Source: Lachnospiraceae bacterium
GTDB lineage: Bacteria; Bacillota; Clostridia; Lachnospirales; Lachnospiraceae
Assembly: GCA_017441265.1 (NCBI GenBank)
Contig: JAFRYE010000037.1
Coordinates: 1-64,000, forward strand
Reading direction: 5' to 3'
DNA length: 64,000 nt
In this document: piece after piece, positions 1,764-64,000 of the stretch
Numbering within the stretch: position 1 is the first letter of the stretch
Layout: each line of letters starts with the position of its first letter
Program-made: the position numbers and the translations under genes
Notes under the pieces: generated by a model
What the model was told of the DNA's origin: nothing
The model's input: the letters and a program-made list of their open reading frames with translations, nothing else
The model's database searches: none

Positions 1764-2966
1764 TCAGTCCTTCGTAAAATGCTCCATCAAACGGAAGCCT
1801 TCCGGATAGTTGTATCCGGTCTTCTCCGCGCTCTCTTCCGTGTAAACATCCGCACAATGCACCGTCTTGGTGCTGTCGTAGATCAGGTACGGGATCGGCT
1901 CGCTCGTATGTGTGCGCAGCGAAACCGGCGTCGGATGATCCGGCAGCAGCATCAGCCGGTACGGCTCGCCCGAGGCATCCATCGCCCTGCGGACAACGCC
2001 GATGATCTGCTCGTCGATAAACTCGATTGCCTGCACCTTGCGCTCCGCGCTTCCCTGGTGCCCCATCTCGTCCGGAGCCTCCACGTGGATATACGCGAAA
2101 TCCGCACCCTCGGAGAGAACCGCGTTGACCGCCGCCTCCGCCTTGCCGCGGTAGTTCGTATGAAGACTTCCGTCCGCGCCGGGCACGATAATGTTGCGCA
2201 TGCCGGCTCCCACCGCGATGCCTTTGAGAAGATCCACCGCAGAGATCATCACGCCGCGGAGACCGCATTTTTCGAAAAATGACGAGAGCATCGGTCGTGT
2301 GCCGGCTCCCCAGAACCACAGCGAGTTCGCCTTGTTGAGGCCTTTCGCCGCGCGCTCAACGTTGATCGGATGGTTGTTGAGGATCTCGTAGCTGCGCTTC
2401 TGCATTTCCCGAAGAACCGGATCCTCGGGCAGATACTCGCCGATCACGCGCGTCAGGATATCATGGGGCGGCGTCAGCGAAACGACTTTTCCGCGGTTCC
2501 AGATCAGCAGATGACGATAGCTGGTTCCCACGTAGAAGTGGTATCCCTCCCACTCCAGCTGTTTGCGCACTGCCTCGAGAAGGATTGCCGCATCTTCCGT
2601 CGAGATTTCCGACGAGCTGTGGTCGATGATGGTCTTCTGCTCGTACGGCAGATCGTCGTCCGAGACCGTCACGATATTGCAGCGGATGGCAACGTCCGTC
2701 GAAGCCATGTTCACGCCGATGGAGAGTGCTTCCAACGGCGACCGGCCGGTGTAATACTCTCTCGGATTGTATCCCATGACCGCCAGGTTGGCCGTGTCAC
2801 TGCCGGGCTTCATACCCTCGGGGATCGTGTGTGCCATGCCGATCTCGGAAAGCGGCGCCAGCGCGTCCGTCTCCGGCGTCTTTGCGTAGGCAAGCGGCGT
2901 CTTTCCGCCCAGAGCATCAATCGGCAGATCGGCCATGCCGTCCGCCAGAACTACTATATACTTCAT
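1764..2966 (-). CDS. Phosphoglycerate-mutase-type homoserine kinase
   Basis: The protein belongs to the archaeal-type cofactor-independent phosphoglycerate mutase family of the alkaline phosphatase superfamily. The N-terminal VLADGMAD holds the first metal-binding Asp, and DHSSSEIST, EAPDEMGHQG and the late DHPTPVSLRTHT carry the other metal-site residues. Its place directly downstream of homoserine dehydrogenase makes homoserine kinase the likely role, as proposed for such homologues in bacteria that lack classical ThrB; this is inference from context. I start at the ATG at 2966 because AGGTGA sits 5 bases upstream; a GTG three codons earlier (2975) would overlap that site. A true glycolytic mutase remains possible. 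Confidence 0.82.
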   Translation of the reverse strand: MKYIVVLADGMADLPIDALGGKTPLAYAKTPETDALAPLSEIGMAHTIPEGMKPGSDTANLAVMGYNPREYYTGRSPLEALSIGVNMASTDVAIRCNIVTVSDDDLPYEQKTIIDHSSSEISTEDAAILLEAVRKQLEWEGYHFYVGTSYRHLLIWNRGKVVSLTPPHDILTRVIGEYLPEDPVLREMQKRSYEILNNHPINVERAAKGLNKANSLWFWGAGTRPMLSSFFEKCGLRGVMISAVDLLKGIAVGAGMRNIIVPGADGSLHTNYRGKAEAAVNAVLSEGADFAYIHVEAPDEMGHQGSAERKVQAIEFIDEQIIGVVRRAMDASGEPYRLMLLPDHPTPVSLRTHTSEPIPYLIYDSTKTVHCADVYTEESAEKTGYNYPEGFRLMEHFTKD

Positions 2967-3022
2967 ATGTATCACCTAAAATCACGCAGGAAAAGACTTC
3001 TCCCTGCGTGACTCCTTTCTCA

Positions 3023-4222
3023 CTATTCGTATCGAATGAATCCGATCACCGGGAGCTTTGCCGCGCTGTCCGCGAACTCCTTCTCGGTCATGTTCTTCGT
3101 GACAAATGCAAACTCCTGCGGGTACTCCGGCAGTGAGACAACCTTGTGAATGTCGAAGATTGCCTTTGCTCTCTCGGCAGACTCCGCATCAACGCGAACG
3201 AAGAATCTTCCCTCCATGTCGTCCTTCTTGCCGAGGTCGAGTTTTTCCGTGCTCCAAAGGATCGGAATGTTCGTCGAACGATGCTTTGCAGCGTCGATCA
3301 CGTCCGAGACCACCGCGCTCGCCGTCGGGTATTTTCCGGCGCCCATGCCGTAGAACATAATGTCCCCGAGCATGTTCCCGCGCAGTTTGATCGCATTGAA
3401 CACACCGTTGACCGGGTAGAGCGGGTTCTTCTTGCGGACCATCATCGGCGATACCATCGCGTAGATCTTCCCGTCCTTCTGATAGCTGCGGGCGATGAGC
3501 TTGATCCCGTGCTTCATCGATTTCGCATATGCCACATCCGCCTCGGTAATCTTTGTGATCCCCTCGGTGTAAATATCCTGATAATCCACTTGCTGACCGT
3601 ACGCGAGCGAGGTCAGGATCGCGATCTTACGGCACGCGTCATAGCCTTCGATATCCGCTGCCGGGTTCCGCTCCGCAAAGCCGTTGGCCTGTGCATCCGC
3701 AAGCGCCTCGTCAAAGGAAATGCCGTCCTCACGCATGCGCGTCATCATATAGTTGGTCGTTCCGTTGAGGATGCCGCTGACCTCCTCCACCTCGTCCGCC
3801 GTCACCGAACGCATCAGCTGGCGGATGACCGGAATGCCGCCGCCCACGCTGGCTTCAAAGAGGAAGTTGATGTTCTTCTCCTTCGCAATGGCGATCAGCT
3901 CCGCGCCGTATGCCGCCACCAGTTCCTTGTTGGAGGTGCACACGCTGCGTCCGGAGAGAAGCGCCTCTTTGACAAAATCATACGCCGGCTTCAGACCGCC
4001 CATCACCTCGACGATGATCTCAACTTCCGGATCCTCGATGATCTTCCGGAAATCGTGAACCAGAAACGGCTCCACCGGATCCCCCGGGAACTCCCGAAGG
4101 TCCAAAACATACTTGACTTCGATCGGCCAGCCGACTCTCTTCTCGATGACGGCGGCGTTCTCGCGAATGACGCCGAACACGCCCGAGCCGACCGTACCAT
4201 ATCCCAAAATTGCTACTTTCAT
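3023..4222 (-). CDS. hom: Homoserine dehydrogenase
   Basis: This NAD(P)-dependent enzyme makes homoserine from aspartate semialdehyde for threonine and methionine synthesis. The N-terminal Rossmann motif GYGTVGSGV, the central GILNGTTNYMMTRM and the ADAQANGFAERNPAADIEGYDACRK region (given here only as a landmark around residues 175-200) are diagnostic. A shortened ACT-type tail occupies about the last 80 residues, so the 399-residue length is at the low end for enzymes with a regulatory tail. A strong AGGAGGAACG site precedes the ATG. It sits between an ACT-domain protein and the putative homoserine kinase, forming a compact threonine-branch operon. Confidence 0.95.
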   Translation of the reverse strand: MKVAILGYGTVGSGVFGVIRENAAVIEKRVGWPIEVKYVLDLREFPGDPVEPFLVHDFRKIIEDPEVEIIVEVMGGLKPAYDFVKEALLSGRSVCTSNKELVAAYGAELIAIAKEKNINFLFEASVGGGIPVIRQLMRSVTADEVEEVSGILNGTTNYMMTRMREDGISFDEALADAQANGFAERNPAADIEGYDACRKIAILTSLAYGQQVDYQDIYTEGITKITEADVAYAKSMKHGIKLIARSYQKDGKIYAMVSPMMVRKKNPLYPVNGVFNAIKLRGNMLGDIMFYGMGAGKYPTASAVVSDVIDAAKHRSTNIPILWSTEKLDLGKKDDMEGRFFVRVDAESAERAKAIFDIHKVVSLPEYPQEFAFVTKNMTEKEFADSAAKLPVIGFIRYE

Positions 4223-4269
4223 CTTCTATCGTTCCTCCTGTTGTCTCACTCTCCGTATGATCGGCGCGA

Positions 4270-4710: not shown

Positions 4711-4814
4711 GATTGTCTCCTTTCTCGAGAAATCGTACCGTTTTTGTTTGCCTACCGCAAACATTTGTCCGTAAACAATGGTAATTCTACCATATGACCC
4801 CGGAAAATGCAATT

Positions 4815-6222: not shown

Positions 6223-7638
6223 TCAGTAACGCACGTATAACAACGGATCCACATTCGTTCCGTCAATGAGTACACTGAAGTGCAGATGCGGTCCGGTGGA
6301 GATTCCCGTGGAACCGACCAGAGCGATCTTCTGTCCCTGCAGTACCTTATCGCCTGTGGAAACCAGAAGCTTACTGCAATGCAGATACCGTGTCATAAAA
6401 CCGTTGCCGTGATCGATCTCGACAAGGTATCCGCCGCCGCCGGAGGAGTACCCGGAGAACCGAACCGTGCCGGCCAGCGCCGCAACGATCGGAGCGCCCA
6501 TCTTTCCGCCGATATCCACGCCCTTGTGGAACGTGCTGGCGCCCTTGGTAGGCGCGCGTCTGGGACCGAAGCCGGAGCCCGTGTACGAGTCGCCCGGAAG
6601 CGGCCAGATCATCTTGGCCGGATCGGTCACATTTTTCAGCTGAATGGAATCTGCGCTCGAAACACCGGTGTGCGGCACGTTCGCATATTTCTTATCCCGC
6701 TCCGCCTGCGTCTGCTTCCTTCCGAGGGCCGCCAGTCGGGCCGCTTCCTCGGCGCGCTTCTTCGCCTCTTCCGCCGCTTTTTTTGCAGCCTCTCTGCGCT
6801 TGCGCTCTTCCTCTTCCTCGATCTTCTTCTTTGCGGCTGCCACATCGGCGTCCGCCTTCGCGAGCAGATCGCTGTAATCCTCGAGGACTTCCTCGTTGAC
6901 ACCGATCTGTCTCTCGTATTCTGCGAGCGCTTCCGTCTTCTTGGCGATCAGCGTCTCGACATATTCAAACTCTGCGTCATACAGCGCGCGGCTGTCCTCC
7001 AACATTCCGATCTGCATCTCGAGCTTCTCTTTGACGAGATTCACCTGATGCTTTGCCTCGTAGTACGACTGCGTCAACTGGTAATCATACGCGCGGATGT
7101 CCCCCGCAAACTCGTCGTAATTCAGGATGTCGGAAATGCTGCGGGATCCTAACAGGATCTCCAGTTCCGTCATATTTCCGTGCTCGTAGAGATACTGGAA
7201 CCTGCGTTTCATGTTCTCGTACTGCTTGTCGGCGCGGACGGTCGCCGCCTCAAGCTCGGCGTTCGTCACGGCAAGCTCCGAATTCAGGCGGGCGAGCTCG
7301 CTTTCGATCGCCTCGACCTCAAGCATCATCAGGCTTTGTTTCTCATCGATCTCCTGAAGATACTTGTCAATCTTATCAAAATTCGACTGGAGTTCCTTGG
7401 TCTCCTTCTCGACTTTCTTCTTCTGGGATGCCAACTCCTCGCGGCGACGCTTCGCCTCCTCGAGATCCTCCTGCAGATCGCTTTCGGAAATGATCGGCAC
7501 GCGGCCGACCTGCAGGCTCACCCAGTCAATCGAATCGTCAATCCGGCGCGTCGTGGTTTTGCCGTATGCGGAAAATGAACCACCGAGCAACGTCATCGCA
7601 AGCACGATGACCATCGATCTTCGAAACAATCTTCTCAT
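6223..7638 (-). CDS. Coiled-coil M23 peptidase, EnvC-like FtsEX partner
   Basis: The protein has 471 residues: a signal peptide, a long coiled coil (about 50-300, dense in E, K, R, A), a charged Ala/Arg/Glu linker and a C-terminal LytM/M23 domain. The metal ligands FHKGVDIG and HLHF are both present, so unlike E. coli EnvC the domain looks catalytically complete. The gene directly follows ftsX, and FtsEX is known to activate coiled-coil murein hydrolases or their activators (EnvC, PcsB, RipC). I infer that this is the extracellular hydrolase worked by the adjacent FtsEX. GGAAGAGA precedes the start. Confidence 0.92.
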   Translation of the reverse strand: MRRLFRRSMVIVLAMTLLGGSFSAYGKTTTRRIDDSIDWVSLQVGRVPIISESDLQEDLEEAKRRREELASQKKKVEKETKELQSNFDKIDKYLQEIDEKQSLMMLEVEAIESELARLNSELAVTNAELEAATVRADKQYENMKRRFQYLYEHGNMTELEILLGSRSISDILNYDEFAGDIRAYDYQLTQSYYEAKHQVNLVKEKLEMQIGMLEDSRALYDAEFEYVETLIAKKTEALAEYERQIGVNEEVLEDYSDLLAKADADVAAAKKKIEEEEERKRREAAKKAAEEAKKRAEEAARLAALGRKQTQAERDKKYANVPHTGVSSADSIQLKNVTDPAKMIWPLPGDSYTGSGFGPRRAPTKGASTFHKGVDIGGKMGAPIVAALAGTVRFSGYSSGGGGYLVEIDHGNGFMTRYLHCSKLLVSTGDKVLQGQKIALVGSTGISTGPHLHFSVLIDGTNVDPLLYVRY

Positions 7639-8597: not shown

Positions 8598-9528
8598 TGC
8601 CGTATCCTCCCTTCTTGTCGTCTACAACAACGCCTTCACGAAGGGAAATAACGCGCTTCTGCATGGAATCCACGATCTCACGGTTGTGCGTGACCACAAC
8701 GACGGTCGTGCCCTGCGCATTGATGTCATTCAACAGGTTCATGATGCCGATGGTGTTGGCCGGATCGAGGTTACCGGTCGGCTCGTCTGCAAGCAGGATC
8801 AACGGCTTGTTGATCAACGCCCTGGCCAGTGCAACACGCTGCTGCTCGCCGCCGGAAAGCTTGTTCGGATAGCTCTTGTACTTGCCGGAAAGACCGACAA
8901 TTCCGAGCATACGGCTCACGTTGCGCGCGATCTTGTGGAACGGAGCACCGACAACTTTCTGGGCAAATGCGATATTCTCATACACCGTGCGATCCTCCAG
9001 CAAACGGAAGTCCTGGAACACGATGCCGATATTTCGACGATATTTGCATACATGGCGGTTGCGTAGTCTCGAGAGGTCCGTTCCGCCGATCAGGATCGTT
9101 CCCGACGTCGGGCGGATCTCGCGCATCAACAGGCGGATCAGCGTGGATTTGCCGGCGCCGCTGGGGCCGACGATAAATACGAACTCGCCCTGATTGATCT
9201 TGAACGAAACATCCTTGAGCGCCTGGTTGTCCTCGCTGCTCGGACCGTCGTCATATTCCTTTGTCACATGTTCAAACACGATAACCGGATTGTTCGAGGG
9301 TTCCGCCTGCAAAGGCGCCGAAGCGACTTCCCCGTCGTCATCCACGTCATCATACTCTGCCGATCCCTCCGAAGCGCCGACCGCATCCGGTTTCCCCGAA
9401 CGCACCGCGGTCGTCACCGCTTCCTCGTAGTCGTCATAATCGTCCCGGAAAGTCTCGGGCAATCCGGCTGCTTCCGCCACGGCACGAACATTTTCCGCGG
9501 CATCAGCGGTTAGATTCTTCTCATCCAT
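8590..9528 (-). CDS. ftsE: Cell-division ATPase FtsE with long acidic N-terminal extension
   Basis: The ABC ATPase core starts near residue 75 ([11 protein letters not shown]). It has Walker A GPSGAGKS, signature [15 protein letters not shown] and Walker [15 protein letters not shown], the last being the FtsE/LolD-type form. It powers FtsX at the septum. The first 70 or so residues are an Asp/Glu/Ala-rich, probably disordered tail ([20 protein letters not shown]) that ordinary FtsE of about 230 residues lacks. I choose ATG 9528, with AGGGG 7 bases upstream. An ABC-sized protein could start only much further in, where I see no better ribosome site, so the tail is probably real. Confidence 0.94.
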
Positions 9529-12057: not shown

Positions 12058-12433
12058 TACAAAATGCCTCCTATAATTTCTTGCAGACGCAATACAGCCG
12101 CTCTCGCAGCATCCATCGTATATGATACACTACGCGCCCCGAAAAAACTATGTTGCAAATGTACAAATTCAGTTTTCTACTTTTGTCTAATTTGCATAAC
12201 AATCGATTTTGCGCGTGCTGCCCTTGTCTTTTTTACTGAAAATGCACAGCAGAAACCGTGTAAAACCCCTTTGTTTTGCAAGATTTTTGTACATAATGCC
12301 GTATTTCCGAGGTTATGTATTTTTTGTGTCCGCGGAAAATGACTGTTCCCCCACCGCATGGAATTGCATTTTTCGGCAATTTTTGCTACACTTGCGGCAG
12401 AAAACGTGCCTTGTAAAGGAGGTTCATCATCCT
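12058..12433. other. Divergent intergenic region between ATPase and SDR genes
   Basis: These 376 bases separate two diverging genes and are AT-rich relative to the flanks. Both outer ends hold ribosome sites: TAGGAGGC for the ATPase and AAAGGAGG at 12415-12422 for the SDR gene. I found no promoter pair that I trust and no RNA gene. It contains several copies of the recurrent AAAATG word, including CGGAAAATG at 12333-12341. Confidence 0.5.
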
Positions 12434-14125: not shown

Positions 14126-17100
14126 TTATTCCCGGTTTTCGCCCCCCTGAGCGCCGGTCACGTCGCAATCTAAGAAATTCATGGCTTCCTCTTCGAAGCC
14201 GAAAGCAATTCCCGCCGCCGAAGCTAAACGGAAATTGAACGTCGACATCTCGAACTGTCCGCGTCCCTTCTTCTCTCCGGAGCCGACGCCGATGGCCAAA
14301 GCGCCCTCGCACCGCATTCCGAGCTGGGAATGGATGAGACGGATTGTTGCGGAACCCGTGCGGCATCCGACGCCGATGCAGCGTTTTGCACGCATCTCGG
14401 TGCGGATCTCGCAGTCCGTCGCGCGGACATTGACCGTCTCGCTATGCAGACTTCCGATGCCGACCTGCGTGTCGCCGGAAACCACACACTCAAATCCGAC
14501 GTTCACCAGATCGACTCTCGCCTCCCCGTTGATGGACCCCACCGCCACGCCGCGGTCGGAATTGACGCGCGCCCGGATCCGGGTATTGCGAAGCGACAGC
14601 GCGGCAACGCTGCTGGAAGAGCCGATTCCGAGGGCAAGTTCGCCCGTCATAGTCAAATACAGGTTGCGGCACTGCTCGATGCGAATGCCGGTCTCCCGCA
14701 GATACCCGCCGCCGATGCCGATACACTCACGGCCGTCGCCGTGGATCGTCAGCTCGCCTTCCATGTTGACCGTGATCCGGCCGACGGACTGGTTGCAGTC
14801 GCCGCCGATGGCAAAGCTGCGGTCGGCGCTGACATTGATGCATAATTTTCCTTTGCCCTCCAGCGTCAGTGAGGAGCTTTCGGGCACACGGATACCGGAA
14901 TCCTGCATCGTGACATTGCCCTCGATGACCAGCGTCACGTCACTGCGGTTTCCGATCTCGATACAGGGGCGTCGCTGGAACGACTCCAGCTGAAGCCCGC
15001 GCAAATGAATCCGGCAAATGGTATTGTCCGGCACATGGATCACGATGTCGGTCTGATACTTCGGATTGCCGACGAGGACGCAGTCCGGTCTGGGCACGAC
15101 GACCTCGGTGTAGCCCTCCATCACCAGCGGCACGAGCTGCACTTCGTTCTCGCTGCCGACAATGTACGTCTTCTTCTGACGCGTATCGATATTGCGAAGG
15201 TTGATCCGAACGATCTCCTCGCTGATCTCCTTGGGAATCTCATCGACGATCTCCGTATCCGGCTTTCCGGTATAGTATCCCTGAATGAGATCGATCCCGA
15301 GACGGATCACGGTGTTGAGTTCGTCTCTGGTCTCCACGCCTTCGGCCAGCGCAAGGAACCCGTTCTCGTGAGCGAATTCCACGGTGTTTGACACGAAGAA
15401 CTGCTTCTTGTTGTCCTCACCGACACCGGCGATCAGGCTGCGGTCGATCTTGACATAGTTCGGCGAATAGGTGAGCAGGTTGGAAATGTTGGAGTACCCT
15501 GCGCCGTAATCGTCGACGGCAAGCTGCATGCCGTGGTCGTCACAGCGTTTTTTGATGATCTGTACCTGCTCCTGGCTTGCCTCCGTCTGCTCCGTGAACT
15601 CGATGACGATATTGGGTAGAATATCGGCATAGTTTGCGATCAGTTTCGCGTAGTCGCGGTCGTTGATGATAACCTTCGGAATACTGTTGATAAACAGCTT
15701 TCTGCCGCGGAACCGGTCGATATTGTCGCGGTACAGCGCGAGCGTGTTGAAAAATGTGTGTCGCTCGACGTCGTACAGGCGGTCCATCATCTCCGCGTGA
15801 TGCAGGATCGTTCCGGGAGAGAGCGTCCGCTCCGTCCCCGAACGCATCAATGCTTCGTAGGAGTAGATCTCTCCGGTCTTGGCGTTGATGATCGGCTGGA
15901 ACTCATATTTCATGAGGTTGTCGTCGAGGATCCGCGTCACTTCGCCGCGCTCCTCCTCATTGATGATCTCGGAGCCGTCGTCCTGACGTTTCTTCGCAAG
16001 TTTGATCGCCTTCTTCTCCGCGATGACGGCGGCGGTGATCTCCGCGATGCTCTCCTCGCTCACCACCTCCTCGCACACCTTCACATACATAATGTTCAGG
16101 CTGTAGGATTTGCGGTTGAACGTATTGTAGTTGCGGATGCGCGCCCCCAGATTGGAAAGCAGGCCCGTCGCATCGTTGTCGTTGTCGTAAAATCCTGCGA
16201 TGACGAACTCATCGTTGCCGAACCGCGCGCAGATGTCGCGGTCGTTCATCGTATTCTGGATCATCTTCGTGAGCGTCATAAGGACCTCGTTGCCCTCCTC
16301 GCGGCCGTACGCGTCGTTGATCGTGGAAAACCGCTCGATATCCAGGGCGATGACGCGCAGCAGTTTCGTCGGACGTCCGCCGAGATGGCGGTACATATCC
16401 TGCAGCGCTCCGATATAGCCCTTGTAGTTGAACAGACCGGTCATGGGATCGCGGACCTGATTCTGCATCGTCACGTCGTCATACATGTACCAGCGGCGCT
16501 GCGTCTCCAGGCAATGCGACAGTTTCCGCAGCCAGCCGCGCAGGTATCGCGCATACAGCTGCGGCGTGCTGCCATAGGAAAGGACCACATAGCCGAGCAC
16601 GCGGTCGATGAAATGTAACGGCGCAACGTAAAATATCCGCGGCTTCTCGCTCTCCCGATACAATGCCGGGATCATGAATTCGCGGGAGAATTTGCGCCCG
16701 TCGCCGAACGTGCTCGAATCCTTTTCATGGGAAATGGCGAGCTCGATCTTGTCGGTCAGGTGTTTCATCTCCTCGCGCTCATGCATGGCATTTTCGTTCA
16801 GGCACAGGTAAAAAGCCTCGTAATCACCGAGGTAGGAAGTGGACCGATCGACAACGCGGAGACATGTGGAGAAATCCGTGACATTGGTGATCTCCTCGCT
16901 CATGAAGTTGAATTCCGAAGGGAACTGTTCATTGGCGATCTTAAGATTCTCAAGCCACAGATTTGAGTAAGAGCCGCAGGAACTGCGGGCACAACCGCAG
17001 GAAGCGCCGGGAACCAGCCTGCAACAGCCGGTCCGGTGCGTCAGAAGAAACTGCTCTTTGCCCTCCATAAGAGCCAGAAGCATGTGAACTGCATTTTGCG

Positions 17101-29710: not shown

Positions 29711-30322
29711 TCAGGTGTTCTCTTCCGCCGGTTCCTCGTCCCGCTCTTCGCCGAGGTTTGACATGTTGACCTCGCCCTGCTTGCGGCCGATCACCTTGCG
29801 GATGCGAGCCAGCACGAACGCGGATACCAGATCGGTGAAACCGCTGTAGATCAACCCGACGCCGATCCACGTGTCCATATTGCTCTTGATCACTCCGATC
29901 ATCAGGATAAAACCGTACACGATACCAATCAGCGCGATGATCGCGTGAACGATCCAGGTCCCGTGCTTTAAACGCTTCATATCCCAGCTGTTCTGGAATT
30001 TCGCGGTTCCGCTGAAGAGGATCAGGAAGGACAATACCACCGGCAGATGAGCCATGATCTCGTCATGCTTGACGAACATGGAAACGCCGATCAGCACCGC
30101 CGTCATCGCAATCGCCAGCACATAGCGCTGCGTATCGGCCATCGCTTCCTTGCGGATGTAATCAACGACAAAACACAGTCCCGCAGCAACCGCTACAGCC
30201 GCCAGCACATAGCAGATCGTCGACTGCGTCTTATCCGGCCAGAGGAGCATGACAACCCCGAGACCCACGAGAACCGCAGAGACAAAAATGATGTCCAGTT
30301 TCATTTTCCGAATAAAATTCAT
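29711..30322 (-). CDS. DUF308/HdeD-like membrane protein
   Basis: The protein has 203 residues with about six membrane helices in three hairpins, the DUF308 layout (VLVGLGVVMLLWPDKTQ, VLSFLILFSGTAKFQNSW, IALIGIVYGFILMIG). A charged cytoplasmic C-tail ends with EERDEEPAEENT. The molecular role of this family in Firmicutes is not established to my knowledge. It is 42 bases downstream of the diguanylate cyclase gene and probably shares its transcript. Confidence 0.82.
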   Translation of the reverse strand: MNFIRKMKLDIIFVSAVLVGLGVVMLLWPDKTQSTICYVLAAVAVAAGLCFVVDYIRKEAMADTQRYVLAIAMTAVLIGVSMFVKHDEIMAHLPVVLSFLILFSGTAKFQNSWDMKRLKHGTWIVHAIIALIGIVYGFILMIGVIKSNMDTWIGVGLIYSGFTDLVSAFVLARIRKVIGRKQGEVNMSNLGEERDEEPAEENT

Positions 30323-43459: not shown

Positions 43460-44560
<1,101 letters not shown>

Positions 44561-45711: not shown

Positions 45712-46392
45712 CTATTCAGTTTCACCTAAATGGTAAATATACTCCCATTCCCATTTTCCGTTAACCATGTGCGAATAGATGACTCCTGTCGCTCCGCACA
45801 CTTCTACATACTCGGTTCTCGCATCGTCGAACCAATACTCGACTCTCGAAAGGCCACTGCCACCATCAAAATCCGGAGCAAACGCAATTTCATTGAATCG
45901 CGCCTTAAATGCACTGCTGTCATCCGCATTCGTTATTTGTTCCGAATAACCATCTGCTACCATTTCCTGTATGATTCGTTTGGCGTCGGCGAGAGTAAGT
46001 CTCGCGACATTCTGCGGAAGTAATCCCATTATGCCAATAATTTCCCTGATGTATTCATCTCCCGCGCCGAAAGCCAGTCGTGCCCCCTCGACTTTCAGGT
46101 TTTCCAACTGCTGTCTCTGCGTTGTATCAGCAACAGCCAAGCATTTTTCGTACAGGGAATCCGGTGAAGCATTCAACAGTTCTTCTTTCATCTTCGCCGA
46201 CAATCCCGTTTTTTCCGAAGCGTCACCTACAGGTGTCAAACTCTCTCCTGGCGACAGCGAAATCGTTGAATTGTCTGATACCGTCCCCGATTTAGGAGAA
46301 TCCGTTTCCAACGCTTCGCTCTTTCGGTCTCCGCAAGCACACATCAGAATCACTATTCCCAATATTATACATACCAGTGCTTCTCTTTTCAT
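45712..46392 (-). CDS. Small lipoprotein, paralogue of the 44843 gene
   Basis: The protein has 226 residues. The lipobox is CACG-type (LMCAC), then GDRKSEA and a Ser/Thr linker. The domain has LYEKCLAVADTTQRQQ, DEYIREIIGIMGLLPQNVAR, ADGYSEQITN and GGSGLSRVEYWFDDARTEYV, matching the neighbour. It starts at 46392 with AGAGGAG 6 bases upstream. The frame remains open for 19 codons upstream and reads as plausible protein (DEIVELLKANGNEW), possibly a fragment of a lost gene. It has low GC and AT-rich codons, suggesting acquisition with its neighbour. Confidence 0.78.
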   Translation of the reverse strand: MKREALVCIILGIVILMCACGDRKSEALETDSPKSGTVSDNSTISLSPGESLTPVGDASEKTGLSAKMKEELLNASPDSLYEKCLAVADTTQRQQLENLKVEGARLAFGAGDEYIREIIGIMGLLPQNVARLTLADAKRIIQEMVADGYSEQITNADDSSAFKARFNEIAFAPDFDGGSGLSRVEYWFDDARTEYVEVCGATGVIYSHMVNGKWEWEYIYHLGETE

Positions 46393-47757: not shown

Positions 47758-48444
47758 TTACGAAAAATAACTCAAATCCGTGTGGTTGCTCTCACTGAGC
47801 ATGGATTTCACTTCACTCACGATCTTGCTCGTTCCGAGCCGGCTCGCGCCGAGTTTGATAAACTCCTCCGCATCCTCGATGGAACGAATCCCGCCGGCAG
47901 CCTTGACCTTCTTGCCCTTGCAGTGGAGCGCCATCAGCTCAACGTCATGGAACGTAGCGCCGCCTCCGCCGAAGCCCGTAGATGTCTTGATGTAATCCGC
48001 ATCCGACCGGGATACGACGTCGCACAGGGCCAGTTTCTCCACCTCCGTGAGTTTGCAGGTCTCAATGATGACTTTGAGGAGGCGTCCCTCGCAGGACTTC
48101 TTTACGGCATTGATCTCCGCCAGAACGTCCTCGTAGCGACCTTCTTTGACCGTTCCTACGTTGATCACCATATCGATCTCCGCAGCGCCGTTGGCAACCG
48201 CATCCGAAGCCTCGGCACACTTGGCGGCAGTCGTCTGGTAACCGTTCGGGAATCCGATCACGGTACAGATCGGCACCTTTCCTCCCGCATACTCCGCCGC
48301 CCGCTTCACATAGCACGGCGGAATGCAGACGCTTGCGGTATGAAACCGCACTCCGTCATCCACAATTCCACGAATGTCCTCCCAGGTCGCCGTCACCGAC
48401 AGCAACGTGTGATCCACACAGTTCAACAGCTGTTGAATCTCCAT
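47758..48444 (-). CDS. deoC: Deoxyribose-phosphate aldolase
   Basis: The protein has 228 residues, a class I aldolase with the proton-relay Lys in IIETCKLT and the Schiff-base Lys in [10 protein letters not shown]. It converts deoxyribose 5-phosphate to glyceraldehyde 3-phosphate and acetaldehyde. It is 40 bases upstream of deoD in the same direction, and AGGAAGG precedes the ATG. Confidence 0.96.
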
Positions 48445-48479
48445 TTTCCGTTTCCTTCCTTTCCGCTCTTTTTTTTATC

Positions 48480-49535: not shown

Positions 49536-50935
49536 ATCGCGCTCTCCTGTGATTTCCAAACCGGTTCCTTCGCCACACGGACACGACCTCGCACGTACTG
49601 CGGAGCATCCGCGCCCAGCACTTCACCGCTCATATAGACCGGCACGCAGGGCGGCATGCTGACCGCCGGCTCCGTCAACACTCTGCCGGCGCAATGCGCG
49701 GCATCGACATATTCGCTCTCCGCAAGAACGGCTTCGGCGGGGCTTAAGACCCGAACCGGCGCCGGAATACGCCCGCTGCGGGGCTCCGCTTCACTCTTCA
49801 CTCCGGTCTCCGTCTTCGGTAAGGGCTTTGCCTCTGCGGCGATTGCCAGCAGCGCCTTTCCCACCGCCTGCAGATCACTCTGCGGCGCCGTCACGCCGAA
49901 CATCAGCACGACGAAATCCCGGTCGCAGTACTCCGCCTCGATCCCGCGTTCCCGAAGGGCTTCTCCGAGCGCCAATCCGTCGGAAAATACCGTTCCTGCC
50001 GCGAGGGTAATCTTCAGCCGTTCGTCGCCGTACAGCACATATCCCGCAGTTTGCAGGCTGCTTTTCAGAGCGTCCACGGCTCGCGCCGCCCGCTCGACGG
50101 CATTGCCGTTGTCCGCCAGATACGCATTGCACAGATCCAGTGACTGCAGGATCAGATAGGACGGGCTTGTGGTGGCAAAGATCGACAGCGCTGCACGGGC
50201 ATTTTCCGCCAGAAAATGATCGGTGAGCGCGGAAACCTGCAAATACGCTCCTCCCGTCAGAACCGGCAGGGTTTTGTGCGCGGAATCGCAGCAGATGTCC
50301 GCTCCGAGATCCATCGGATGCGCGCTCTGCGCAAGAAATTTCAGATAGGCGCCGTGAGCGTTGTCCACGGCAAGAAGACATCCCGGGGTGTGGCAGACTT
50401 CCGCCAGCCCCGCGATATCGGCTGTCTTTCCTAGATAATCCGGACTTGTGACGTACACCGCCGTCGGCATCTCTCCTCTCGCCCGGCAGTCGTCCATCCG
50501 CTCCGCCAGCTCCTCCGGCGTGACGGTGCAGCTCACGAACGATTCCGTAACATGCGGCATGATCCACTCGACGTCAACGCCAGTGAGGGAGACGGCGTCC
50601 AGAAAGGACCGGTGCACATTGCGCGCCGCCAGGATCCTCGGCTTTCTGCCCAGATGCAGCGCGAACTTCTTCAACAAAAACACCATGGCGCGCACGCACA
50701 GTGAGGAGCCCTCCGTCGAGTAAAATGTCCGGCATCCGAACAAAACTCCGGCGTTGGCCTCGCTCTCCGCGATGATGCCGCAGGGCTGCGAGAGCACGTC
50801 GGCTCCGGCAATCTCCGTGATATCCGAGAGTTCCGCTCCGAGCGGCCCGGGAACACCTTTGTGTCCGGGCATATGCATGCGGACGGTTCCGCTTTCGCGG
50901 TATTCCTGTACAAAATCAAAGATCGGTGTGTTCAT
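49520..50935 (-). CDS. Orn/Lys/Arg decarboxylase family PLP enzyme
   Basis: The protein has 471 residues. It is a fold-type I PLP enzyme with MHMPGHKG, STEGSSLCVRAMV and the PLP lysine in CCDSAHKTLPVLTGGAYL. The family includes arginine and lysine decarboxylases; the short C-terminal domain suits the Bacillus SpeA/YaaO branch. The substrate is unassigned. I give the ATG at 50935 (MNTPIFDF), although its AAGAGG site is very close; an ATG at 50974 behind AGGAGGAG is an alternative. It follows the SCIFF maturase gene by 54 bases. Confidence 0.88.
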   Translation of the reverse strand: MNTPIFDFVQEYRESGTVRMHMPGHKGVPGPLGAELSDITEIAGADVLSQPCGIIAESEANAGVLFGCRTFYSTEGSSLCVRAMVFLLKKFALHLGRKPRILAARNVHRSFLDAVSLTGVDVEWIMPHVTESFVSCTVTPEELAERMDDCRARGEMPTAVYVTSPDYLGKTADIAGLAEVCHTPGCLLAVDNAHGAYLKFLAQSAHPMDLGADICCDSAHKTLPVLTGGAYLQVSALTDHFLAENARAALSIFATTSPSYLILQSLDLCNAYLADNGNAVERAARAVDALKSSLQTAGYVLYGDERLKITLAAGTVFSDGLALGEALRERGIEAEYCDRDFVVLMFGVTAPQSDLQAVGKALLAIAAEAKPLPKTETGVKSEAEPRSGRIPAPVRVLSPAEAVLAESEYVDAAHCAGRVLTEPAVSMPPCVPVYMSGEVLGADAPQYVRGRVRVAKEPVWKSQESAIWNRQ

Positions 50936-52584: not shown

Positions 52585-52665
52585 AAAAACCTCCTGTAGC
52601 GCTTGTTGCGCTGTTCGAACATCTGCGTTCAGTTTAACGGATTCCGCGCAAAATGTCAATAGCGA

Positions 52666-52924: not shown

Positions 52925-53887
52925 TCAACCTCCTTCTTTCAACCGTAACCCCTCAGCTATCTCACATAGTTTCTGCAGCCGGTGATTGACCCCTGACCTT
53001 CCCAGAGGCGGCACCGTATACTTCCCCAGTTCCGTAAGCGACGCTTCCGGATACCGAATCCGAAGCTCCGCCATCTCCCGAAGCTCCTCGGGCAATCCCT
53101 GCAGACCGGTTGTCTGCGAGATCCGCTCGATCGCTTCTATCTGTCGATTGGCAGCGCGCATCGTCTTGCCGATGTTGAACACTTCACAGTTCACTTTTCG
53201 CTGAACTTCCGCACGCTTACTCCGCACCACACGAATATCCTCGAACCGGACTCTCGCCGCCGTTGAATCGATGATCGTCAGCGCGTCGGCCACCTGATCC
53301 GCGTCCTTCAGATATACCGCGTATGACCCTCGCCGCTCCCATAACTTCGGCTCGCAGCCAAACCGCTCGAACACCCCGATAAGAATCTCTCCGAAGGATG
53401 CCGTCGGTGCGGAAATCTCAAAATGATACGATTTTTCGGGATTGTTGATCGCTCCTCCCATCAAAAAGCAGCCCCGCGCAAAACTCCGTGCACAGCAATC
53501 CGCTTTCGGCTGGTGAAACGGCCAATCCGCCAAGGGTTCCGCCGTCCCGAGCGCTGTCCGCGCAGGAACCTCAAACCCCATCTCCTCTATGCAGTTTCGC
53601 ACCTCGCGACCGCCCTCCGCACGCACGTAAAATGCCGTACCTGCGCGGTTTGCAGACGGTGTTACCCCTGCAACAATGTTCATATTATAGGACTTTCTGA
53701 GAAAAGTAAAGCACTTTTTCGCAATATTTTCTTTTTCTGTAGAAAAAATGAGGATGCACGATCCGTCGTCCCGGAGTTCCGCCGTCCCGCCGTAATACAT
53801 GAACGCGGAGAGCTCCGCGATGCAGCAATGCCGCTTCGCCGGAATCTTTCCGGCCAGTTCCTCTTTCAGGTCTGTGGAAAATGACAT
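52925..53887 (-). CDS. whiA: Sporulation/division regulator WhiA
   Basis: The protein has 320 residues. An N-terminal homing-endonuclease-like domain (ELSAFMYYGGTAEL, SFARGCFLMGGAINNPEKSYH) is followed by a C-terminal helix-turn-helix (about 225-315; YPEASLTELGKYTVPPLGRS). WhiA is a conserved Gram-positive DNA-binding protein linked to cell division and chromosome organisation. It starts at 53887 with GGGGAGGAC upstream; the first codons contain a GGAAAATG copy. It is followed almost directly by the HPr-like gene. Confidence 0.96.
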   Translation of the reverse strand: MSFSTDLKEELAGKIPAKRHCCIAELSAFMYYGGTAELRDDGSCILIFSTEKENIAKKCFTFLRKSYNMNIVAGVTPSANRAGTAFYVRAEGGREVRNCIEEMGFEVPARTALGTAEPLADWPFHQPKADCCARSFARGCFLMGGAINNPEKSYHFEISAPTASFGEILIGVFERFGCEPKLWERRGSYAVYLKDADQVADALTIIDSTAARVRFEDIRVVRSKRAEVQRKVNCEVFNIGKTMRAANRQIEAIERISQTTGLQGLPEELREMAELRIRYPEASLTELGKYTVPPLGRSGVNHRLQKLCEIAEGLRLKEGG

Positions 53888-53929: not shown

Positions 53930-54874
53930 TCAGGACAGGAATTTGACTTCCGGCTCAAGCATGACTCCGGACTGCTCAAACACGATCCGGCGCACATCTT
54001 CGATCAATGTCCGAACATCCGCCGCCGTCGCGCCGCCGCGGTTGATCACGAAACCGCAATGTTTCTCGGAAACCTGCGCTCCGCCCACCGTGTAGCCGCG
54101 AAGCCCCGCATCCTGGATTAATTTTCCGGCGAAATACCCTGTCGGGCGCTTGAAGGTGCTGCCTGCGCTGGGGTACTCCAGAGGCTGCTTTTCCCTGCGC
54201 TTTGCGGAGAGTTCCAGCACTTTGGCCCGGATCTCCTCCCGGTCGCCGCCGCGGAGCGCGAAAGTCGCTCCGACCACGAGATACCCCCGCTCCGGGATGT
54301 TGCTGTGCCGGTAGGAAAGATCGAGTTCCGCCGCGGGAAGGATCATTTTCCGACCGTCGCGGTCAAGAACGGTCACCTCCGTCAGCGAGTCGCAGATTTC
54401 CCCGCCGTACGCGCCGGCGTTCATCACGATCCCGCCGCCGACGGTTCCGGGAATGCCCGTTGCATACTCCAGTCCCGCCAAACCGCGATCGCAGGCGTCT
54501 CTGGCAAATCCCGAGAAGGACGTCCCGGCCGTGACCGACGCGAAGACGGTATCCCCGTCCGTCCGGTAATCCGGCTTACTGCGCTTGTCTTCCATGTGGA
54601 GGATGACTCCTTCGATCCCCTCGTCCGCCGCAAGGACATTGCTGCCGTTGCCCAGAATCTGCATGCGGATGCCCTCCGCGCGCAGGAAGCGCACGGTCTC
54701 CGCCGCAAGGTCCGCGATCCCCGTCACTCCGTCCTCACTGCCGGGCACAAGGTACACCTTGGCCGGTCCGCCGATCCGGAATGTCGTATGCGCCGCCATC
54801 GGCTCGCCGAAGCGGCAGATCCCGCGCCCCTCGTACATCGATGATAATTTCTTTTTGCAATCCTCAGTAATCAT
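53930..54874 (-). CDS. murB: UDP-N-acetylenolpyruvoylglucosamine reductase
   Basis: The protein has 314 residues, the FAD enzyme that makes UDP-N-acetylmuramic acid. The FAD-binding blocks are HTTFRIGGPA, ILGNGSNVL and GIPGTVGGGIVMNAGAYGGE, and the late YPSAGSTFKRP carries the catalytic Ser. The length and YPSAGSTF form fit the type IIb class of Firmicutes. I start at 54874 with CGGAGACGC upstream. It lies between the ROK kinase and whiA genes. Confidence 0.96.
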   Translation of the reverse strand: MITEDCKKKLSSMYEGRGICRFGEPMAAHTTFRIGGPAKVYLVPGSEDGVTGIADLAAETVRFLRAEGIRMQILGNGSNVLAADEGIEGVILHMEDKRSKPDYRTDGDTVFASVTAGTSFSGFARDACDRGLAGLEYATGIPGTVGGGIVMNAGAYGGEICDSLTEVTVLDRDGRKMILPAAELDLSYRHSNIPERGYLVVGATFALRGGDREEIRAKVLELSAKRREKQPLEYPSAGSTFKRPTGYFAGKLIQDAGLRGYTVGGAQVSEKHCGFVINRGGATAADVRTLIEDVRRIVFEQSGVMLEPEVKFLS

Positions 54875-58859: not shown

Positions 58860-60926
58860 CTATTCGACGGTTCCGGTGATCTCGCCGGACTCGTCAGCCG
58901 TCGTCTCCCCGCTCTGCGCGGCGGTTTCTTCGACCGGTGCGGCATCTAAGTCAATCTCCTCAACCGCTGCCGGTTCATCGGGCTCCTCGCCGCGAACGCG
59001 ACGGAAGATCTCCATGAACTGCTTGCCGGTGATCGTCTCTTTCGTGATGAGGAACTCGGCTGCCTCGTCCAGGATCGCACGGTTCTCGCGGAGCATCGCC
59101 TCGGCGTCTTCATAGCAGCCGCCGATGGTCCTGCGAACCTCGAGGTCGATCTTGGTCGCCGTCTCGTCGCTGCACATCGTGACCGCACGGCCGTCGAGGT
59201 AACGGCTTTCCACGGTCTCGAGAGCAACCATGCCGAACTCATCCGACATACCGTACATCGTGATCATCTGGCGCGCTAACGATGTCGCGCGCTCGATGTC
59301 GTTGCTTGCCCCGGTCGTGATGGAATCAAACACCACAGCCTCCGCGGCACGTCCGCCGCACAAGGTGCGGATCTGTCGCAAAATGTCCTCCTTGGAGCTT
59401 AAGTACTTCTCCTCCTCGGGAACCTGCATCGTATATCCCAAAGCGCCCATGGTACGGGGCACGATGGTGATCTTCTGCACCGGCTCCGCGCCCTTTTGAA
59501 GCGCCGCAACCAGCGCGTGACCGACTTCGTGGTACGCGACGATCTTCTTTTCCTCCGGTCCGAGGATGCGGTCTTTCTTCTCCTTGCCGGCAAAGACGAC
59601 TTCCACGGACTCCATCAGATCGGACTGCTGCACCACCGTACGGCCTTCCTTAACCGCGAGGATGGCAGCCTCGTTGATGATGTTGGCAAGGTCCGATCCC
59701 ACCGCGCCGCTCGTCGCCAGCGCGATTTCTTCGAGGTTGACCGAATCGTGCATCAACACATTTTTCGCATGAACCTTCAGGGTCGCCAGACGGCCCTTGA
59801 GGTCGGGCTTGTCGACGATGATCCGACGGTCGAAACGCCCCGGTCGGAGTAGCGCCTTGTCGAGGATCTCCGGGCGGTTCGTTGCCGCCAGGATCACGAT
59901 ACCCTTCGACGTGTCGAAGCCGTCCATCTCCGCGAGCAGCTGGTTGAGAGTCTGTTCGCGCTCGTCGTTGCCGCCGCCGTAACGGCTGTCACGGCTCTTG
60001 CCGATGGCATCGATCTCATCGATAAATACGATACACGGCGCCATCTGCTGCGCCTGCCGGAACAGATCGCGAACGCGGGATGCGCCGACACCGACATACA
60101 TCTCCACGAAATCCGAACCGGACAGAGAGAAGAACGGCACCTTCGCCTCGCCGGCCACGGCTTTCGCAAGAAGCGTTTTGCCGGTTCCGGGAGGTCCGAC
60201 CAAAAGCGCTCCTTTGGGAAGCTTCGCGCCGATTCTCGTATATTTGGAGGGGTCATGCAGGAAATCGACGAGCTCCAGAACGGACTCTTTCGCTTCCTCC
60301 TGTCCCGCGACATCCTTAAAGGTAACTCCGGTCTCCTTCTCCACATACATCTTTGCGGTGGATTTGCCGGCGCCGAAACCGCCGATACCGCCGTTTTTGG
60401 AGAGCATTCGGTATGCGCCCCACAGCATCAGATAAATAAACGCGAACGGCAGCACATACGCGAAGAGCAGATCGATGATGGTCGTGCTCTTGTCGACGAT
60501 CAACCGCTTGTACTCCAAAACGCCGTCCTTCTGGTCCTCTTTTCCTTCCTGCTTCAGTTTCTCCTTCTGCCGCTCCCGCGCCTCTTCCAGTCGCTCCGTC
60601 AGTTTCGAGTCGCTCTCGATGATACCCGTGTAATAGGTCTCCACACGGACATCCTCCTTCGCGCTGTCCTTCGGATAGATCACGATCTTGTCGTAATCCT
60701 CCTGGATCTCGATCTTGACAATATCGTCCTTGTCGAGCAGCTCCAGGAACTCGCCGTATGTGATCTCGCGGTTCCGGATCTTGTTGATCTCGGACGAGAT
60801 GAACATATAGCAGAAGATGAAAATGAGAAACAGGATGACGGTCAGGATGATCCGCGGGACAAATCCCGTCTTGCGGTTGTCACCCTTGTTGCCCCCGTTC
60901 TTATTGTCTTGATTCGGTGTGCTCAA
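58860..60926 (-). CDS. ftsH: ATP-dependent zinc metalloprotease FtsH (TTG start)
   Basis: The protein has 688 residues: two membrane helices around an extracellular segment, an AAA domain with Walker A GPPGTGKT, Walker [13 protein letters not shown] and SRH, and the protease with Zn motif YHEVGHAL. It degrades membrane and some cytoplasmic proteins. I choose the TTG at 60926 because GGGGAGG ends 5 bases upstream and the next residues STPNQDNKN fit a cytosolic tail; the ATG eight codons earlier (60950) lies upstream of that site. The C-terminal tail is acidic and unusually long. Confidence 0.96.
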
Positions 60927-61021: not shown

Positions 61022-61768
61022 CTATGCCTCGCCGCAGAGCGCGTCCGTCACTTCCTTCATGACCGATGCGATATCCTCATGCAGTACGAGCGACGCCTCC
61101 GAATCCGCCGAAGTCACGCTCTTGTTGATCAGGATCAGATCCCGGCCGCGGTAATAGTGGATCAGGCCTGCCGCCGGATAGACGATCAGCGACGTCCCGC
61201 CGACGATCAGCGTGTCGGCAGTCGCGATCGCGCGCACCGCTCCGTTGATCACGTTGTCGTCAAGGCTCTCCTCGTAGAGCACGACGTCGGGCTTGATCAC
61301 GCCGCCGCACTCGCAGCGCGGGACTCCGTCCGTCTCGAGGATCGCGTCCACACCGTAGAACTTGTGGCACCGCGTGCAGAAGTTCCGAAGAACCGAGCCG
61401 TGCAGTTCGTACACGGTCTTGGAGCCGGCCTTCTGGTGCAGTCCGTCGATGTTCTGCGTGACAACCGCCTTCAGTTTGCCCATCTGCTCAAGCTTCGCCA
61501 GCGCCTTGTGGCAATCGTTCGGCTGCGCCTGCGGATAGACCAGGTGTTGGCGGTAGAAATCAAAGAAATCTTCCGGGTATCTCTCGTAAAATGTGCGCGA
61601 CACCATCTCCTCCGGCGACAATGTCCGGTGCAGTTTCTGGTGGAACAATCCGTTCGCGCTCCGGAAATCGGGGATGTTACTTGCCGTCGATACGCCCGCT
61701 CCCCCGAAAAATACGATATTGCTGCTCCGCCGCAGCACTTCTGTCAAACGCTCTCTCAATTCCTCCAT
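61022..61768 (-). CDS. NAD-dependent protein deacylase (sirtuin)
   Basis: The protein has 248 residues with the sirtuin NAD motif FFGGAGVSTASNIPDFRS, catalytic TQNIDGLHQKAG (His) and two Zn Cys pairs (CTRCHKF and CECGG). It removes acyl groups from protein lysines. It lacks the Tyr-Arg pair check I would need to separate deacetylase from desuccinylase. AAAGGAGAAGG precedes the ATG. It lies 24 bases behind the AraC regulator gene. Confidence 0.94.
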   Translation of the reverse strand: MEELRERLTEVLRRSSNIVFFGGAGVSTASNIPDFRSANGLFHQKLHRTLSPEEMVSRTFYERYPEDFFDFYRQHLVYPQAQPNDCHKALAKLEQMGKLKAVVTQNIDGLHQKAGSKTVYELHGSVLRNFCTRCHKFYGVDAILETDGVPRCECGGVIKPDVVLYEESLDDNVINGAVRAIATADTLIVGGTSLIVYPAAGLIHYYRGRDLILINKSVTSADSEASLVLHEDIASVMKEVTDALCGEA

Positions 61769-62650: not shown

Positions 62651-62684
62651 ACAAAAAGACCTCCTCTTCCCTCTCGTAATCGAC

Positions 62685-63359
62685 TCAGATATTCTCGATC
62701 TGCCAGTCGATCGGTGTAACCCCGTTAGCCTTCAAAAACTCGTTGGCCCTGCTGAAATGCCGGCACCCGAAGAACCCCCTGCTGGCCGACAGCGGACTCG
62801 GATGCGGCGCCGTCAGAATCAAATGGTTCGGATTCGTCAGCATCGGCATCTTGCTCTGCGCAGGCCGTCCCCACAGCAGATAGACGATCGGCCGGTCCTC
62901 GCGGTTGATCTCCGAGATCACCGCGTCGGTAAAAGTCTCCCAGCCGTGTCCGTGGTGGGAATTCGCCTGATGGGCGCGAACCGTCAGCACCGTGTTCAAA
63001 AGCAGGACACCCTGCTTGGCCCATTTGACGAGATAGCCGTTGTTCGGAATGTAGCACCCGAGATCCGAGTGCAGTTCCTTGTAGATATTCACAAGCGAAG
63101 GAGGAACTTCCGTGCCCGGACATACGGAAAAACACAGTCCGTGCGCCTGGTTGACTTCGTGGTAGGGATCCTGCCCCAGGATCACCACCTTGACGTCTGC
63201 CTTCGTCGTGTAGCGAAACGCCTCGAACACCCGCTCTTTCGGCGGATAGACGGTTCCGCGCGCATATTCCTCCCGCAGGAAATCGCTCAAGCCACGGTAG
63301 TACGGCTTGGCGAATTCACTCTTCACCAATCCGGCCCAGTCCTCGGCGATCACTGCCAT
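62685..63359 (-). CDS. ung: Uracil-DNA glycosylase
   Basis: The protein has 224 residues, family 1 UDG with the water-activating motif GQDPYH and the late [11 protein letters not shown] loop. It removes uracil from DNA. ATG 63359 has GGAGG 7 bases upstream and overlaps the hisF stop by 10 bases, an odd coupling of repair with histidine synthesis. Confidence 0.96.
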
Positions 63360-64000
63360 TTTGCCACCTCCCGAACGCTCACTCCGCGCTCGCGGAGATA
63401 TTTCTTCACCTCCGAGATTTCCAGTTCCTTGTAGTGGAACAGAGATGCCGCCAGCGCCGCGTCCGCGCCGCCCTCGGTCAAAGCCTCGTAAAAGTGTTCG
63501 CAGTTGCCCGCGCCGCCCGAGGCGATCACCGGAATGGAAACCCGGTCGGCAACGGCTCTCGTGAGTTCGATGTCGTAACCGTTCTTCGTTCCGTCGCAAT
63601 CCATGCTCGTGAGCAGGATCTCTCCCGCTCCGAGGTCCTGCGCCCGTCCGGCCCACTCCACGGCGTCGATGCCCATATCGATACGCCCGCCGTTCTTGTA
63701 AATATGCCATGTGCCGTCCGGCATGCGCTTCGCGTCGATCGCCACGACCACGCACTGGCTGCCGAACCGGTCAGCCGCCTCCCGGATCAGCGACGGATTC
63801 ATGATCGCCGCCGAGTTGACGGCAACCTTGTCCGCGCCCTCGCGCAGGATCATATAGAAATCCTCCACCGAGCGGATCCCTCCGCCGACGGTAAAAGGGA
63901 TAAAGACCTGTTCCGCCACGCGCCGCACCATCTCCTTCTTGATGGTCCGCGCGTCGGACGACGCCGTGATATCCAGAAACACCAGTTCATCGGCGCCGGC
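63350..64000 (-). CDS. hisF: Imidazole glycerol phosphate synthase subunit HisF, N terminus cut by window edge
   Basis: These are the last 216 residues of HisF; the frame is open to the right edge ([13 protein letters not shown] in frame), so about 35-40 N-terminal residues lie outside. It shows the (beta-alpha)8 phosphate-binding loops [21 protein letters not shown] and the catalytic Asp in [14 protein letters not shown]. It forms imidazole glycerol phosphate and AICAR with HisH. It is followed by ung. Confidence 0.95.

Follow-up and report, generated by a model that had tools for sequence, protein, structure and literature searches.

The repeated word in the window and in its genome

The stretch considered here, below called the window, comprises 64,000 nucleotides (positions 1 to 64,000 of contig JAFRYE010000037.1, forward strand, assembly GCA_017441265.1 of a Lachnospiraceae bacterium) with a guanine-plus-cytosine (GC) content of 56.2% by script count, and carries a short word, CGGAAAATG with its close variants, far more often than expected. 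An earlier note on this DNA had estimated by eye about 90 copies of AAAATG and 17 of CGGAAAATG; script counts give 101 (59 on the plus and 42 on the minus strand) and 19, respectively, together with 42 copies of the degenerate pattern CGNAAAATG and 37 of CG[GAT]AAAATG. An order-3 Markov model of the window predicts only 40.6 copies of AAAATG and 2.1 of CGGAAAATG, and the variants CGAAAAATG (11 versus 1.3 expected), CGTAAAATG (7 versus 0.6) and CGCAAAATG (5 versus 1.0) are in excess as well. Under the same model the highest z score among 9-mers belongs to CGGAAAATG and that among 8-mers to GGAAAATG, the latter followed by CGGAAAAT, GTAAAATG and CGAAAAAT at the head of the list. The over-representation reported in the note is thus real. 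The sites of CGNAAAATG (Table 1) span positions 1773-61593, lie on both strands, within and outside called genes, and in two places (2266/2273 and 35250/35257) form an overlapping inverted pair, which agrees with the note's description.

The excess is not confined to the window. In the whole assembly (G000; 2,585,061 bases in 79 contigs, with the window on contig C4) CGNAAAATG occurs 1,801 times (912 + 889 by strand) as compared to 170 (95 + 75) for the reversed pattern, and CGGAAAATG 1,042 times as compared to 9. Nor does it result from composition or codon usage. The codon-preserving shuffle that the note had proposed was applied to 304 kb of the genome from five contigs (the window and 240 kb of stretches, which also served for spacing and orientation) by permuting synonymous codons 100 times within each of 233 called genes. 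The genes contain 154 copies of CGNAAAATG as opposed to a shuffle mean of 20.5 (standard deviation 3.5, maximum 29), an excess of about 7.5-fold, and 87 of CGGAAAATG as opposed to 8.8; the control words GAAAATCGG (1 versus 3.2) and CGGTAAAAG (3 versus 2.1) show none. Coding copies use six of six reading frames, as had been claimed, and the further remark that the word keeps TTT in genes otherwise using TTC fits the commonest frame, xCA TTT TNC Gxx on the gene strand, which accounts for 49 of 153 coding copies.

Variants with one mismatch outline the anatomy of the word. Any base at position 1 (20, 20 and 24 versus 3-5 expected) or position 3 (40, 20 and 27 versus 3-6) leaves it enriched, position 4 tolerates C (21 versus 6.7) and position 9 tolerates A (33 versus 6.6) and C (23 versus 9.5). 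Changes at positions 2 and 5-8 bring the counts down to background or near it, so that the strict core consists of G at position 2 and AAAT at positions 5-8. The flanks are weak: the 1-5 bases upstream are T-rich, A or C follows directly downstream in 78%, and there is little further out.

Spacing is near-exponential with a mean of 1.47 kb, that is, random, except for five gaps of at most 10 bp where 1.3 are expected. All five are inverted pairs of the form CATTTTn..nAAAATG and four of them overlap by CG, such overlapping double sites being rare (four 7-bp pairs among 193 gaps). With the replication strand assigned by the mean GC skew of each stretch, 97 copies are leading and 101 lagging (p=0.83), although single contigs are uneven (51 to 34 in C44, 21 to 31 in C2); the checks on strand bias and spacing suggested by the note thus reveal no bias and a nearly random arrangement. 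Of the copies in genes, 90 run against the direction of the gene and 63 with it (p=0.035). DNA outside called genes makes up 13% of the bases but holds 45 of 198 copies (p=3e-4); the genes were called with a program of our own, which overlooks some of them and leaves uncalled open frames in part of the 'outside' DNA.

Two further recurrent words were seen. The palindrome CCTGCAGG is over-represented in the window (16 versus 2.8 expected) and in the 264 kb formed by the window and loci L013-L022 (36 versus 10.5), and CCTGCAG-type words recur in the congeners G011, G002 and G004. The same 264 kb contain GCCGGTAGAACA, a 12-mer, and the words next to it 6 times where fewer than 0.1 are expected, and a small repeat family may lie behind them.

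Table 1. Positions of the word in the window
Word	Position	Strand	Remark
CGTAAAATG	1773..1781	+	
CGAAAAATG	2266..2274	−	forms CATTTTTCGAAAAATG (2266-2281) with the overlapping inverted copy to its right
CGAAAAATG	2273..2281	+	right half of inverted pair CATTTTTCGAAAAATG (2266-2281)
CGGAAAATG	4801..4809	+	
CGGAAAATG	7569..7577	+	
CGGAAAATG	9489..9497	−	
CGGAAAATG	12333..12341	+	first of +- pair, 34 bases apart
CGAAAAATG	12367..12375	−	second of +- pair with 12333..12341
CGCAAAATG	17092..17100	−	
CGGAAAATG	22248..22256	−	
CGGAAAATG	22470..22478	−	
CGGAAAATG	23068..23076	−	
CGGAAAATG	23139..23147	−	
CGGAAAATG	23228..23236	−	
CGAAAAATG	23285..23293	+	
CGAAAAATG	23765..23773	+	
CGGAAAATG	24620..24628	+	
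CGAAAAATG	29532..29540	+	
CGGAAAATG	30302..30310	−	
CGTAAAATG	30793..30801	+	
CGCAAAATG	31785..31793	+	
CGGAAAATG	33326..33334	+	outside called genes
CGTAAAATG	35250..35258	−	forms CATTTTACGTAAAATG (35250-35265) with the overlapping inverted copy to its right; outside called genes
CGTAAAATG	35257..35265	+	right half of inverted pair CATTTTACGTAAAATG (35250-35265)
CGGAAAATG	35398..35406	−	outside called genes
CGAAAAATG	36670..36678	−	
CGGAAAATG	37782..37790	−	
CGAAAAATG	37896..37904	−	
CGTAAAATG	40055..40063	−	
CGCAAAATG	40304..40312	−	
CGAAAAATG	42148..42156	−	
CGGAAAATG	43778..43786	+	
CGGAAAATG	45752..45760	−	outside called genes; within uncalled open frame 45712-46449
CGAAAAATG	46142..46150	−	outside called genes; within uncalled open frame 45712-46449
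CGGAAAATG	48442..48450	−	gene edge
CGGAAAATG	50200..50208	−	
CGCAAAATG	52647..52655	+	outside called genes
CGTAAAATG	53626..53634	+	
CGGAAAATG	54344..54352	−	
CGCAAAATG	59377..59385	+	
CGAAAAATG	59759..59767	−	
CGTAAAATG	61585..61593	+	

Distribution and dialects within the Lachnospiraceae

The UvrC protein encoded in the window (56929-58803) has its 80 best-matching genome records in Lachnospiraceae or in Clostridia named with less precision, and the four closest among them (80-87% identity in the best segment) are uncultured metagenome-assembled genomes, one of them from water-buffalo rumen; the two RUG bins among these relatives come from rumen as well. In a panel of 61 genomes (our own, 21 congeners, 15 other genera of the family and 24 other families of the order) CGNAAAATG reaches at least three times its control in 19 of the 22 genus members, the exceptions being G006, G016 and G018 with 1.2-1.5 times control, and exceeds 1.8 times control in none of the other 39 genomes of the order. 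The variant CGGCAAATG is enriched at least 2.8-fold in 20 of the 22 members, including G016 but not G006 and G018. In 56 named loci longer than 15 kb the density is 50-78 copies per 100 kb in the four closest relatives and at most 27 in the other 52. An unrooted PilB-PilT-PilC tree of 16 genus members, built with no outgroup, places G016, G018 and G006 together (support 1.0) and next to G012, which has the word (support 0.73); going by this tree, the word was likely lost in the G016/G018/G006 clade. A repeat family, perhaps a repetitive protein gene, yields GTGAATTCG and TTCGTAGGT 32-38 times in 100 kb of G006 (L149-L151, L023, C5) and thereby masks k-mer discovery in that genome.

A wider scan of 397 Lachnospiraceae genomes, whose tables were read by eye, shows that the excess of CGGAAAATG extends beyond the genus: 1,042 copies in G000 and 763 in G002 compare with 401 and 354 in two species of genus g98, 340 in G253 and 337 in G134, the reversed control counting 5-20 in each of these, and with roughly 20-200 in most other genera. 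Moreover, the word changes its form. The lower-GC genus members G001, G004, G008 and G017 carry GG[AC]AAATG followed by C or T instead of A or C. Twelve outlier genera were picked by eye from the counts of CGGAAAATG and GGNMAATGY in the 397 genomes, and the 11-180 kb read from each revealed a clear word in four of them: GGNCAATG in g98, with all four bases at N (118 versus about 14 expected in 144 kb), GGGCAATG in g179 (G199; 23 versus 1.2 in 60 kb), GGMAAATG in g68 (GGCAAATG 40 versus 6.7 and GGAAAATG 39 versus 12.4 in 180 kb), and GGAAAATG in g114 (39 versus 8.3 in 76 kb). Genome-wide, the sister word GGNCAATGY is present in six of six g98 species at 1,121-1,589 copies versus 98-111, which is 11-15 times control, while the best of 55 genomes outside g98 holds 334 versus 82, or 4.1 times control.

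A clear GGNMAATG word was not found in the 40-120 kb read from each of G339, G278, G301, G194, G337, G264 and G233, some of which yielded hints (for example GGCAAATG 18 versus 5.0 in G278, GGTCAATG 16 versus 3.1 in G337 and GGCAAATGT 6 versus 0.4 in G301), and the 11 kb sampled from G253 are too short to judge. In a blind scan of 67 named loci of at least 12 kb, three of the four closest relatives and no other locus had a GG..AATG word in the first six places of the 8-mer list; as the fourth was missed, 22 kb are barely sufficient for detecting such a word. In G199 the near-palindromic words GGCAATGCC and CGGCATTG are enriched besides GGGCAATG (L257-L259), which may point to a partly palindromic g179 dialect. 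G337 contains overlapping words, CCGAGTGAGG and GGAGCCGACA among them, 9-14 times (L226-L229), perhaps as a tandem or CRISPR-like array. In the explanation that we favour, CGGAAAATG would belong, as one dialect among others, to a set of GGNMAATG type that several genera of the Lachnospiraceae use.

Competence genes, phage DNA and conjugative elements

The genus possesses genes for DNA import. ComEC (PF03772) was found in 58 of the 61 genomes and in 20 of the 22 genus members, the two misses being 79-82% complete, and ComEA (TIGR00426) was matched in all 22, 21 of them above the family cut-off and G017 below it. In G016 (C63:24535-25331) and G017 (C57:53707-54488) comEC appears to be split or to contain stops, possibly through assembly error; G016 has little excess of CGNAAAATG and G017 a clear one. 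A type IV pilus locus of the order pilB-T-C-A-A-D-M-O was read in 16 genus members, in one of them cut by a contig end, and all 15 whole loci contain minor pilins. The pilus ATPases match PF00437; for G000 only, a match to PF11104 was obtained for PilM, and the N-methylation motif was recognised in two pilins and three minor pilins, while the labels PilC, PilD and PilO were assigned from gene order and sequence. Identity to the G000 proteins is 92-99% for PilT and mostly 19-58% for the last four minor pilins. One minor pilin of about 150-175 residues is the only pilin of the locus that is never net acidic (0 to +7 in the 15 members where it was seen, counted as K+R minus D+E past residue 25). 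A syntenic stretch of the g98 genome G118 encodes pilins, PilD (57%), PilM (34%) and minor pilins, one of them with 163 residues and a charge of +2; PilB, PilT and PilC were not seen in the part of G118 that was read. In Streptococcus pneumoniae, FimT and PilW (ComGD, ComGF) bind DNA through basic residues (PMC12040237).

Within the genus, Phage_portal (PF04860) was matched only in G005, in two places. On contig C9 of this species the interval from 2.4 to 22.9 kb encodes terminase, portal, head and tape-measure proteins and an integrase, and the first 24 kb of the contig (GC about 0.48) contain a single copy of the word, as compared to 11 in the next 16 kb (GC about 0.58). The 40 kb round the second portal gene on C8 (GC about 0.49), which include phage-type methyltransferase and exonuclease genes and within which the prophage borders are not fixed, contain 4, the average of G005 being 48 per 100 kb. 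In these two phage regions of one species the word is thus under-represented in newly acquired DNA. As for other mobile DNA, the relaxase PF03432 was matched in four of 22 genus members (G006 on C7, G018 on C54/C41, G016 on C54 and G008 on C4/C24), namely in the three members with the least word, G016 by a weak partial match, and in only G008 of the 19 others. This association is post hoc (Fisher p=0.0026) and the three word-poor carriers form one clade; transforming lineages may carry fewer conjugative elements.

A putative self-DNA uptake sequence

What, then, could maintain such a word? The note had offered uptake sequences as well as HIP1 and Chi-like sites as models, and of these the uptake sequence is the one that our results support; for nucleoid binding and methylation, which it also named as roles, we retain a low probability. 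The uptake signal sequence (USS, AAGTGCGGT) of Haemophilus influenzae and other Pasteurellaceae likewise occurs about once per 1.2-1.5 kb on both strands as a core with weak flanks. H. influenzae has 1,471 copies in a genome of 1.83 Mb (PMC1852404), comparable to the 1,801 in 2.585 Mb here, and its USS is described as under-represented in newly acquired DNA (PMC7811141), as is our word. The DNA uptake sequence (DUS, GCCGTCTGAA and variants) of the Neisseriaceae varies by species and genus in dialects that share an invariant core, CTG in that family (PMC3630211) and GG..AATG here, and some genomes of that family, too, lack any dialect. Both known words are unrelated to ours in sequence, and the present hosts, unlike the Proteobacteria that carry the USS, are Firmicutes of the family Lachnospiraceae; hairpin pairs are few as compared to DUS and, unlike in USS, there is no clear use as terminator. 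The DUS receptor is the type IV minor pilin ComP, whereas here a minor pilin is only a candidate. Taken together, the density, random spacing, strand symmetry, codon independence, graded mismatch profile and dialects of the word, its absence in some congeners, its low frequency in phage DNA and the com and type IV pilus genes of its hosts suggest that it is a self-DNA uptake sequence and its variants Gram-positive dialects of a DNA uptake sequence, a reading to which we assign a probability of about 0.7.

On this reading the host would be a naturally transformable, rumen-type Lachnospiraceae genus. The word in outside double-stranded DNA would be bound by a receptor on the type IV pilus, for which a minor pilin encoded in the pilB-T-C-A-A-D-M-O locus is the likeliest candidate, PilT would retract the pilus, and ComEA and ComEC would import one strand, which would then recombine. 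Word-bearing alleles would be taken up more often, and words would build up wherever proteins tolerate them, by molecular drive.

Several observations weigh against this interpretation. First, the machinery does not predict the word. Com and pilus genes occur in relatives that lack it, and G006 and G018 have ComEC, ComEA, the pilus locus and even the candidate minor pilin of about 150-175 residues, yet no word; no receptor gene was found to track it. A correlation of word and machinery failed because ComEC, ComEA and T2SSE/PilB-type ATPases are near-universal, and as pilus ATPases are present in genera without the word, the pilus can be necessary at most. Second, any host-specific signature would be scarce in phage DNA, so that this scarcity supports uptake without singling it out. 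Third, the reversed control GTAAAANGC also exceeds its codon shuffle (18 versus 5.5, maximum 12), which means that a threefold excess alone is not decisive. Furthermore, a terminator-like form of the close pairs, unlike in Neisseria, was not apparent by eye, and the host is known from genomes alone.

Finally, word positions are poorly conserved. With shuffled-letter words as controls, 0.156 ± 0.031 of the positions are conserved per ortholog cluster as compared to 0.082 ± 0.008 (93 and 715 clusters, respectively), a value that does not exceed the scatter among individual control patterns (n=38, standard deviation 0.082, maximum 0.333), and at the level of sites the figures are 0.182 versus 0.163 over 27 positions. 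Homologs have gaps more often at word sites than at control words (0.19 versus 0.07) and more often show four or more mismatches (0.30 versus 0.17), indicating that the words lie in faster-changing DNA. Third-codon identity is 0.641 within words versus 0.570 in their flanks, and 0.573 versus 0.617 for the controls (27 word positions). A pairwise comparison (47% versus 22%) was set aside, as it re-counted the same sites across many genome pairs, and in view of the re-tests we claim only weak conservation. The positions seem to turn over fast with at most a slight excess of retention, which neither proves nor refutes drive.

Of the other explanations, a site that organises the chromosome or guides its repair, such as Chi for AddAB, a guide resembling the FtsK-orienting polar sequences (KOPS), or a site for Noc or another nucleoid protein, fares best, though we consider it unlikely. 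The word is indeed abundant and typical of its host genome, like Chi it is short, asymmetric and frequent in coding DNA, and some copies form palindromes (CATTTTnCGnAAAATG), Noc sites having a palindromic A/T-flanked CG core. However, Chi and KOPS are oriented, and the lack of replication-strand bias (97 versus 101) speaks against an oriented site of this kind; Noc-type sites are far fewer than about 1,800, and ancient repair or segregation proteins would not usually be expected to change dialect inside a genus and from one genus to the next. Slightly less probable still is a mutational or epigenetic by-product, in which a methyltransferase or repair system converts near-matches and the word plays no role in uptake. 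Lineage restriction and dialects could follow a changing methyltransferase, and the HIP1 word of cyanobacteria (GCGATCGC) is a similarly iterated, lineage-typical word of coding DNA whose role is unsettled. HIP1 is palindromic, though, whereas CGGAAAATG is not; the latter has an internal loose base and a graded tolerance of mismatches, and at least five of its positions are jointly constrained, while repair of the very-short-patch type changes one base. A mobile or structural repeat, resembling repetitive extragenic palindromes or miniature inverted-repeat transposable elements, or an amino-acid or codon effect is highly improbable, since despite the inverted pairs and the gaps in homologs the flanks beyond about 5 bases are almost without information and the six coding frames and the codon shuffle refute a codon effect. 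Oriented Chi and KOPS sites, palindromic HIP1 and repeats with shared flanks all fit less well than uptake sequences, whose characterisation in PMC7811141 and PMC3630211 the word matches.

A strong bias in uptake has been described for no families but the Pasteurellaceae and Neisseriaceae (PMC7811141), and DNA uptake in almost all other competent species is said to be independent of sequence (PMC12040237). In agreement with the note, which knew of no such word in Clostridia, the papers listed by our search included no earlier report of this word, all of whose listed matches were incidental by title, or of uptake sequences in Clostridia, Firmicutes, Gram-positive bacteria at large or Lachnospiraceae, most subscription journals and all bioRxiv preprints lying outside that search. 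We think it probable, though with less assurance than for uptake as such, that sequence-specific self-DNA uptake evolved in Gram-positive Firmicutes, with an ancestral GGNMAATG-type word, genus dialects, a fast-evolving minor-pilin receptor and Neisseria-like barriers to exchange in gut and rumen. If experiments confirm the uptake reading, this would be the first uptake-tag system in Gram-positive bacteria, and a third, Gram-positive origin with several dialects would mean that uptake bias arises repeatedly and would provide an independent system for finding what creates and changes uptake specificity. One could then predict natural transformability among Lachnospiraceae of gut and rumen, as well as their partners in gene exchange, and DNA supplied with the right word might ease the transformation of commensals that are hard to engineer.

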